From: Halobacteria archaeon AArc-dxtr1
GTDB taxonomy: Archaea; Halobacteriota; Halobacteria; Halobacteriales; Natrialbaceae
Assembly: GCA_025517425.1 (NCBI GenBank)
Contig: JAOPJY010000001.1
Coordinates: 916,217-980,216 of the forward strand
Direction of reading: 5' to 3'
Length of the DNA stretch: 64,000 nucleotides
Shown here: positions 56,869 through 58,505 of the stretch, one piece after another
Position numbering within the stretch: position 1 is the stretch's first letter
Layout of the letters: the number at the start of each line of letters is the position of its first letter
Made by a program: the position numbers and the translations under genes
The notes under the pieces: generated by a model
The model's input: the letters and a program-made list of their open reading frames with translations, nothing else
What the model was told of the DNA's origin: nothing
Database searches by the model: none

Positions 56869-57594
56869 ATGAGCGAGCCTGCGGGCGCGTGGATCAGTCT
56901 CTTTTCGGGCGGCAAGGACTCCTCCTGGGCGCTGTACCGCGCCCTAGAGCGGGGGCTCCCGGTCGAGCGGCTGGTCACCGTCCATCCAACTGGCGACTCG
57001 TATATGTACCACACGCCCGCGACTGACCTCGCGACGCTTGCAGCCGAGAGCGTCGGGATTCAGCTCGTCGACGTCGAGCCCGACGACTTCGACGCCGGAG
57101 CAGCGACCGACTCGGGCGCGCAGGGCGACGCCGAACTCGAGCCGCTCGAGGCGGCACTGAGAGAGCTCGACGAAGAGCTGCCGGGCGGCGTCGCCGGTGT
57201 GACTGCTGGGGCCGTCGAGAGCGAGTACCAGACGAGCCGCATCGAGGCGATGTGTGAGCGACTCGACTGTGATCTGTTCGCGCCGCTGTGGCAAGAAGAG
57301 CCGCGGGCGCTCGCCGAGGAGATGCTCGATGCCGGTTTCGAGATCCAGATCGTCCAGGTCGCGGCAGCGGGGCTCGACGAGTCCTGGCTCGGCCGGACGA
57401 TAGACGCAGAGGCCCTCGCCGACCTTGAGCGACTCAACGAGGAGTACGGCGTCCACATCCTGGGTGAGGGCGGCGAGTTCGAGACACTCGTTGTCGACGG
57501 CCCGCACATGGATCGCCGGATCGACCTCGAGTACGAGACTGAGTGGGAGGGAACGCGAGGGTCGATCCAGGTCACGGACGCGCGGTTGGTGTAG
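56869..57594 (+). CDS. dph6: diphthine-ammonia ligase (Dph6-type)
   Basis: A 241-residue ATP-dependent ligase of the Dph6/MJ0570 group. The PP-loop SGGKDS at 13-18 binds ATP; GAVESEYQTSRIEAMCERL and PLWQEEPRALAEEM are shared with the family, as is GEGGEFETLVVDGPH near the C terminus. It performs the last step of diphthamide synthesis on elongation factor 2. Codons 204-241 plus stop (57481-57594) are repeated at 57699-57812 with only 5 differences, so the gene has a duplicated tail. The gene is complete with its normal C terminus, therefore likely functional. Confidence 0.87.
   Translation: MSEPAGAWISLFSGGKDSSWALYRALERGLPVERLVTVHPTGDSYMYHTPATDLATLAAESVGIQLVDVEPDDFDAGAATDSGAQGDAELEPLEAALRELDEELPGGVAGVTAGAVESEYQTSRIEAMCERLDCDLFAPLWQEEPRALAEEMLDAGFEIQIVQVAAAGLDESWLGRTIDAEALADLERLNEEYGVHILGEGGEFETLVVDGPHMDRRIDLEYETEWEGTRGSIQVTDARLV
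57481..57594 (+). repeat. first copy of the 114-bp duplicated gene end
   Basis: Codons from GAG (ETLVVDG) to the TAG stop of dph6; identical at 109 of 114 positions to 57699-57812. Begins on a codon boundary. Confidence 0.9.
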
Positions 57595-57698
57595 GCGCTC
57601 ACCTCCCCCGAGTGAGCGAAGCGAGTGAGGGGATTTTTGGTCCAGATTTTTCGTCGAGGGGGTCGCGAAGCGACTCCGAGGCGAAAAAGGTGGTTCCT
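57595..57698. other. 104-bp hairpin-containing spacer between the duplicated gene ends
   Basis: The spacer holds GAGTGAGCGAAGCGAGTGAGG (21 bases, described here by its first and last groups GAGTGAGCGA and GCGAGTGAGG) and an imperfect hairpin from TTTTTCG (57647-57653) to CGAAAAA (57682-57688), whose inner stem is GTCGC-GAA-GCGAC. It has no gene. T-runs at 57634-57638 and 57647-57651 could end transcription. Confidence 0.6.
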
Positions 57699-57812
57699 GA
57701 GATACTCGTTGTCGACGGCCCGCACATGGATCGCCGGATCGACCTCGAGTACGAGACTGAGTGGGAGGGAACGCGAGGGTCGATCCAGGTAACGGACGCG
57801 CGGTTGAACTAG
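57699..57812 (+). repeat. second copy of the 114-bp duplicated gene end
   Basis: In-frame copy of the last 38 codons of dph6, reading EILVVDG to DARLN then TAG (57810-57812). Differences: ACA to ATA, GTC to GTA and GTG to AAC. Its stop directly abuts the stop of the convergent gene at 57813. Confidence 0.9.
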
Positions 57813-58505
57813 TCACAACGCGAGGCGCTCGAGTTCGGCCTCCCGCTCGGCCTCGTCGACACCGTGCCACCAGCCGAGCCGATCGATTTCGGCGCGTCGG
57901 AACGAGGTCTCGATTGCGAGCCACTCGGCGGCAGCGATCGTTCGCAGCGGCGTCTCGGCGTCGATCTCTGACTCGTCGATGTCGTCTGCCATCTCCTGGA
58001 TCAGCGTGGTGACGCCAGTCCTCGGCGCCACGACGTCAGCGCCCGCGAGCAGCCGCAGCTGCTGAAAGCTCGCGGGGCCCACACCGTCGATCGCCCCGAT
58101 CGGATCCGCCTCATAGCGAAAGACGTCGGCCTCGCCTGCCCAGGCTTGCAGCGCCGCCAGATCGTCGTCCTCCGGACGGTTTGCGAGGACGTCCGCGACG
58201 GTCAGTAAGACGTGGCGTTGGCGCTCGGGGCCGAACGCCGCAACCAGGTCCTCGTCGTCGGGATCGACGGCAGCCAGCTCGGCCAACGAGTCGACCCGAC
58301 CGGCGTCGACGAACGACTCGCGGAACGCCTCGACGGCGGCGACGGCGTTGCTGAGCCGGCCACCGGTCGTCGTCGCCGCAGCCTCGGCGACGAGCAGCCG
58401 AGGATCCGAGCCGGTGTACCGGTCGAACGAGGCCAGCGCGTCGGCGAGGTCGGCGCAAGGGACCCCCTCGGCTCGCCGTTCGAGGATCGACTGGGGCGCA
58501 GTCAT
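57813..58505 (-). CDS. helix-hairpin-helix-containing unknown protein
   Basis: A 230-residue soluble protein with a helix-hairpin-helix-like motif IGAIDGVGPASFQQLRLLAG in the C half, suggesting nucleic-acid binding. The N half is helical (LADALASFDRYTGSDPRLLVAEAAAT). The last part carries aromatic/basic segments (EWLAIETSFRRAEIDRLGWW). I do not recognise the family; a DNA-glycosylase-like fold without catalytic residues is one possibility. Its stop (TGA, 57813-57815) is adjacent to the duplicated dph6 tail. Start ATG 58503-58505. Confidence 0.65.
   Translation of the reverse strand: MTAPQSILERRAEGVPCADLADALASFDRYTGSDPRLLVAEAAATTTGGRLSNAVAAVEAFRESFVDAGRVDSLAELAAVDPDDEDLVAAFGPERQRHVLLTVADVLANRPEDDDLAALQAWAGEADVFRYEADPIGAIDGVGPASFQQLRLLAGADVVAPRTGVTTLIQEMADDIDESEIDAETPLRTIAAAEWLAIETSFRRAEIDRLGWWHGVDEAEREAELERLAL

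Follow-up and report, generated by a model that had tools for sequence, protein, structure and literature searches.

Duplicated gene ends around a dispersed hairpin element of Halobacteriales: possible scars of gene-end exchange between strains

Why should the end of a protein-coding gene stand twice in a row in a haloarchaeal chromosome, with a hairpin between the two copies? In the window, the 64,000-nucleotide stretch of the Halobacteria archaeon AArc-dxtr1 genome analysed here, the gene concerned is dph6, as identified by profile searches (NCBIfam TIGR03679, Dph6_archaeal, E 1.3e-79; PF01902, E 1.2e-58). A sequence-only reading of this DNA had claimed that the last 38 codons of dph6 recur downstream, and the coordinates confirm it: the two copies, henceforth tail 1 and tail 2 (Table 1), are offset by 218 bases from start to start and agree at 109 of 114 positions. 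They are identical at 106 of the first 108 bases, after which tail 1 closes with gtgtag and tail 2 with aactag, the stop in each being TAG (57592-57594 and 57810-57812). The convergent neighbour follows directly upon the second stop (57812 against 57813), and the spacer carries a stem and a TTTTTCG...CGAAAAA hairpin, both as that reading had described. The duplication is far above chance; a survey of 596 kb of haloarchaeal DNA, from loci chosen around dph6, found only 17 pairs of direct repeats that were at least 38 nt long, at least 80% identical and 30-700 nt apart, nearly all of them at loci with the element described below. An Rfam scan of the locus returned nothing above noise, and the window's spacer folds modestly better than shuffled sequences (z -1.1 as DNA, -1.6 as RNA). 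The strong structural evidence is the covariation across copies rather than the fold of this single one.

Table 1. Features of the dph6 locus, in positions of the window
Feature	Position	Strand	Basis or remark
dph6 (diphthine--ammonia ligase), host gene	56869..57594	+	ORF; TIGR03679, PF01902
Tail 1, final 38 codons of dph6 including the stop, joined to the working gene	57481..57594	+	
Spacer between the dph6 tails	57595-57698		104 bases; stem and TTTTTCG...CGAAAAA hairpin
First stem (CCCC..GAGTGAGCGAAGCGAGTGA..GGGG), just upstream of the T5 run, terminator-like	57606..57632	+	fold; layout common to other copies
T5 run behind the first stem, candidate termination signal for dph6	57634..57638	+	
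Core hairpin element GGT-CC-AGATTTTT...AAAAAGGT-GG, long imperfect hairpin	57639..57696	+	covariance model, fold
Linker TTCCT, from hairpin foot to tail 2	57694..57698	+	TTCT/TTCCT recurs in dph6 of other species
Tail 2, second dph6 tail copy with its own stop, adjoining the downstream flank	57699..57812	+	
Convergent neighbouring gene, its stop abutting tail 2	57813..58505	-	ORF

The spacers at different loci share a common layout: a GC-rich stem, T5, GGTCCAGATTTTT, a GC-rich hairpin, AAAAAGGTGG, a short linker and then the gene tail. The element itself comprises the GC-rich stem followed by a T5-flanked hairpin with feet of the form XY-AGATTTTT...AAAAAGGT-Y'X', and the window's core hairpin matches the covariance model R1 with 67.1 bits (E 7.1e-14). 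The foot dinucleotides occur as the pairs CC/GG, CG/CG, GC/GC, GT/AC and GG/CC and are reverse-complementary in 67 of 68 elements (shuffled mean 22.6, maximum 35), which implies that the hairpin is maintained by pairing. We considered a guide/cleavage pairing of the IS200/605 type as the cause of this covariation and rejected it in favour of simple stem pairing, because at the one fixed junction in a gene for a PINA-like ATPase the foot dinucleotide is GC, CC or AC depending on the species. In some copies the 5' foot reads GTAG or GGAG. The right boundary, in turn, is fixed, the join always lying at most a few bases from AAAAAGGT-Y'X'.

Of 121 genomes from the host's family, 98 contain the element pattern and none its reversed control, and the covariance model matches 102 of 117 Halobacteriales genomes. 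In a phylum-wide draw of 120 genomes, 13 match the model, all of them Halobacteriales; among the matches listed none lies outside that order. The exact element pattern found no match among the viral contigs of IMG/VR, and the only match on plasmids was the dph6 gene tail in one Natronorubrum replicon. We found no description of the element in the accessible literature on haloarchaeal repeats, PATEs, REPs, terminators and integrative elements, and RepRanger (PMC12306157) names no haloarchaeal case. This order-wide dispersed dual-hairpin family of Halobacteriales is apparently undescribed.

The spacer also recurs at other gene 3' ends, in the window's own genome as in others, with each gene's own tail duplicated, in keeping with what the sequence-only reading had foreseen. 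The first case beyond dph6 was ileS in two genomes of the same genus, followed by two further genes of the window's own genome. In a set of 70 distinct elements, which is enriched for dph6, 60 lie between the copies of a direct repeat, which in nearly all cases is the upstream gene's tail; weak or distant repeat matches at loci L146, L147 and L154 are not tail repeats. When one element is picked per genome from 30 genomes of the host's family, a tail repeat is present in 20. Among 80 haloarchaeal dph6 loci a second dph6 tail lies just downstream in ten further species, and about 46 of the 392 genomes of the order hold at least two dph6-tail matches, with adjacency checked for part of these. 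Assigned by profile or by reading, the hosts of element plus tail repeat belong to about 17 core gene families: dph6, ileS, pheT, purH, hisF, hisH, hisE, gatA, citZ, ilvD, sufS, the polD large subunit, the PINA-like ATPase, a radical-SAM-like protein (labelled by reading, as no profile matched it), a metallo-beta-lactamase-fold protein, an SDR oxidoreductase and an M29 peptidase.

Across these genes, the repeat begins inside the gene, 30-126 bases ahead of the stop codon, and its end coincides with that codon or lies close to it; the downstream copy begins 1-14 nt past AAAAAGGT. Several junctions occur within a single gene, at -126, -118/-114 and -54 in dph6 and at -62, about -51 and -30 in the radical-SAM-like gene. 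Tail 1 runs on into the element and tail 2 into the native flank, as would be expected if the tails were two alleles. Two different elements are stacked in L153, and arrays of identical units are seen with five 124-bp units in L181, three in L182 and two in L075. Relatives with an unduplicated dph6 exist as well: in L112 a single dph6 tail is followed by the flank that lies behind tail 2 in its relative L113, and gene tail plus flank of the former align to tail 2 plus flank of the latter, making L112 an empty site. L099 retains part of the first stem together with the final ~20 bases of tail 2, which shows that the element was lost there and that the site is decayed rather than cleanly empty. 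A third tail remnant is kept in L017. L052 and L085, with dph6 and element and no tail 2, are donor-like loci.

The differences between the two tails speak to their history. By codon position they number 36/23/162 in dph6 (leaving out the misaligned L056) and 8/7/49 in the other genes (leaving out the spurious L147 and L154). Relative to neutral decay, for which we chose an expectation of 48% at third positions, the third-position excess has p about 2e-14 for dph6 and 3e-6 for the other genes, which implies that both tails were alleles, serving as working gene ends through most of their divergence. Translation of tail 2 from the upstream frame was considered as the source of its coding constraint and rejected, since a one-base difference between the dph6 linkers of different species (TTCT against TTCCT) breaks that frame. 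The in-frame start of the window's second copy is therefore no constraint. In the sister genomes G040 and G152 (L170/L174) the gene bodies are 98% and the second tails 96% identical, whereas the first tails are at most 86% identical, with nearly all of their differences silent. Another pair, G290 and G207 (L122/L176), has identical elements and near-identical gene bodies; here an allele patch differs between the genomes and yet is present in both tails of each, which shows that tails are homogenised within a genome. In comparisons using one genome per species, tails within a genome are often 96-100% alike as against 80-88% to those of relatives, and which tail is native, as judged by distance to relatives, comes out mixed across loci. 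In the window itself the tails differ by C to T, C to A and the last codon, and a diversity-generating retroelement was rejected as their source, these changes not being at A.

We posit, at a probability of about 0.5, that the duplicated tail is a scar left by a gene-end swap between related strains. A fragment carrying another allele of the gene end together with the element would recombine with the host gene through the homology at its left end; its right end, lying beyond the homology, would be attached through the hairpin foot to the resident tail, at a point 30-126 bases short of the stop. A complete gene end (tail 1) and a terminator would thereby be gained, with the host's old tail stranded downstream as tail 2. 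Thereafter, homologous recombination within the two tails could pass the element between strains, gene conversion, which is very efficient in Haloferax (PMC8223754), could homogenise the tails, unequal crossing-over could build arrays, and crossing-over between the tails could remove the element cleanly. Such a swap would account for the observed order of the parts, the boundary at the stop codon and the allelic nature of the tails; as homology-facilitated illegitimate recombination calls for, the tails come from different functional alleles. We infer both the illegitimate nature of the right-hand join and the direction of transfer. Microhomology at the joins sums to 43 as against 39.9 in shuffled sequences (p 0.19). 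Against the swap stand the position of the join, which never strays more than a few bases from the hairpin foot and so is more precise than illegitimate joining at random would make it, and the mixed answers across loci as to which tail is native. The former is the weak point of the swap, which needs a role for the hairpin, unproven as yet, for instance as a block to an exonuclease. The identity of 96-100% between tails within a genome also fits in-place copying or conversion.

A close parallel is offered by the T6SS effector-immunity and Rhs arrays of Vibrio, where displaced old gene ends have been explained likewise (PMC5361080). Shared with these displaced 3' ends are the homology upstream, the novel DNA downstream, the old end left behind and the arrays. 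However, in those arrays and in Rhs orphan tips the new 3' end encodes a different toxin, whereas the halobacterial gene end keeps its function and all that is new is a short hairpin, with the join invariably at its foot. A further step, which we hold to be possible and put forward tentatively, would be a protein-free element that spreads by itself and takes the conserved 3' ends of essential genes as the homology by which it homes, with the hairpin foot defining the end of the joined DNA. If so, each transfer would replace a gene end, restore its reading frame and install a terminator by means of the host's recombination machinery alone, a kind of element not described before.

Known integrative elements provide the other obvious precedent, for e14 and phage 21 integrate at icd, and many elements at tRNA genes, restoring the gene end as they do so. 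The restored gene end and the flanking tail repeats are common to these and to the element described here; on the other hand, the latter is ~100 bp long, has neither integrase nor genes, and has ~17 targets, each with its own tail. Along such lines, a mobile circle of captured tail plus element, inserted by a recombinase acting in trans, could restore the matching gene end. It would give the succession of tail 1-element and tail 2-native flank as an attL/attR layout and account for the fixed right boundary, and the arrays of identical units would fit repeated integration as well as unequal crossing-over. We nevertheless consider such a circle doubtful. No locus examined has a recombinase or a larger element between the tails, the window's own genome is without a PF01797 protein, a separate captured tail would be required for every gene, and the several junctions within one gene, the many copies without tail repeat and the failure of the exact pattern to match in IMG/VR all speak against it. 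The earlier claim of an integrative element stands as far as the tail repeats and the empty sites (L112 against L113) go; the label remains unproven, with no recombinase encoded in the 104-nt spacer and with many copies lacking the repeat. Homologous exchange of gene ends fits best, and better than site-specific integration.

Hairpins promote slippage, and slippage or unequal exchange at the hairpin might copy the tail in place past the element, with conversion keeping the copies alike; the high identity of tails within genomes relative to that with relatives, and the arrays, would agree with this. However, slippage should duplicate the element too, and yet it is native flank that follows the last tail; the third-position excess indicates that tail 2 was coding through most of its divergence; and tail 1 of the sisters is far more diverged than gene body and tail 2. 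Such in-place duplication is disfavoured by the codon-position data, and we regard it as unlikely. The likeness to bacterial REP/BIME, short dispersed intergenic palindromes found at gene ends and in arrays, raises instead the prospect of a transposing palindrome (REP/RAYT-like, IS200/605-derived or a MITE), with the gene tail a chance target-site duplication. The element is indeed a dispersed intergenic palindrome in many copies, oriented, located at gene ends and in arrays, with covarying feet, a REP-like GTAG or GGAG foot in some copies and near-identical copies at different loci of one genome (G037). Unlike REP/BIME, it has the tail duplication, a T5/A5 stem and variable paired dinucleotide feet, and there is no RAYT-type gene in the window's genome: no RAYT (Y1, PF01797) transposase was found in G000, the own genome, whereas one is present in 19 of 26 genomes. 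Target-site duplication was rejected, since the repeat halts at or near the stop and downstream bases are shared only in arrays; with lengths varying from 28 to ~200 nt and a stop codon at its end, the repeat is also unlike the fixed-length duplication of a MITE or insertion sequence. The foot dinucleotide, varying as it does at one junction in the PINA-like ATPase gene, does not choose the target. We hold the transposing palindrome to be very unlikely.

The proportion of copies with tail repeats varies between sampled genomes: 5 of 8 in G028, 2 of 13 in G053, 1 of 10 in G007 and 0 of 9 in G037. Where the repeat is lacking, a convergent gene has its stop codon 1-9 bases from the right foot. 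This occurrence without tail repeat, often beside a convergent stop and named in advance by the sequence-only reading among the outcomes that would refute it, runs counter to the strict form of the earlier claim, that of an element restoring gene tails. Near-identical copies without tail repeats stand at unrelated genes within one genome or genus (L272-L279 in G037, L217, L222, L224, L229), and such copies suggest that they were dispersed recently along another route. The element sits directly after genes and is probably a two-way transcription terminator, the simplest function given the T5 runs that adjoin gene ends on both strands, next to stop codons. Termination at T-stretches has been shown in Haloferax volcanii (PMC7237163); those terminators, like the element, have T5 runs right after the stop codon, whereas the element has them on both strands, linked by a conserved long hairpin.

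Under the gene-end swap, the element would mark sites of exchange between haloarchaea at genes for aminoacyl-tRNA synthetases, polymerase and biosynthesis, and the two alleles side by side would be a readable record of cross-strain recombination. Phylogenies would then call for caution, as the C-terminal parts of core genes can be imported. These loci would also lend themselves to a simple natural test of gene conversion in polyploid archaea, and they supply a candidate family of two-way terminators and, should the hairpin itself direct the join, a protein-free way to spread.

Several loci show further peculiarities. The array behind the radical-SAM-like gene in G342 (L181:1185-1750), each 124-bp unit of which consists of gene tail plus element, should be useful for measuring array instability. 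In Natronococcus jeotgali (L056:3553-4123) both dph6 tails contain N and one tail segment is doubled, which suggests an assembly error caused by the repeat. A separate dispersed repeat of the form GCGAGTTGAACACGAGCATTCGCGCGAACGAGCGG...TTTTTGGCATGAACGGGTTTTCGCC-hairpin-GGCGAAAAGAGGTT occurs in the window's own genome (L002:1150-1560, L003:1150-1560, L004:1-100); it was rejected as a source of further element copies, being a related hairpin family without tail repeats. A variant of the element with ~60 extra bases between the first T5 and AGATTTTT lies downstream of dph6 in L112 and L113 and at L066:3721-3890, where it too precedes a tail repeat, with the junction at -54. Finally, the inter-tail spacer of Haloarcula salina (L062:3712-4199) has an extra AT-rich stretch of several hundred bp with the ends TTGTGAATAC/GTATTCACAA, possibly a MITE inserted into the element.
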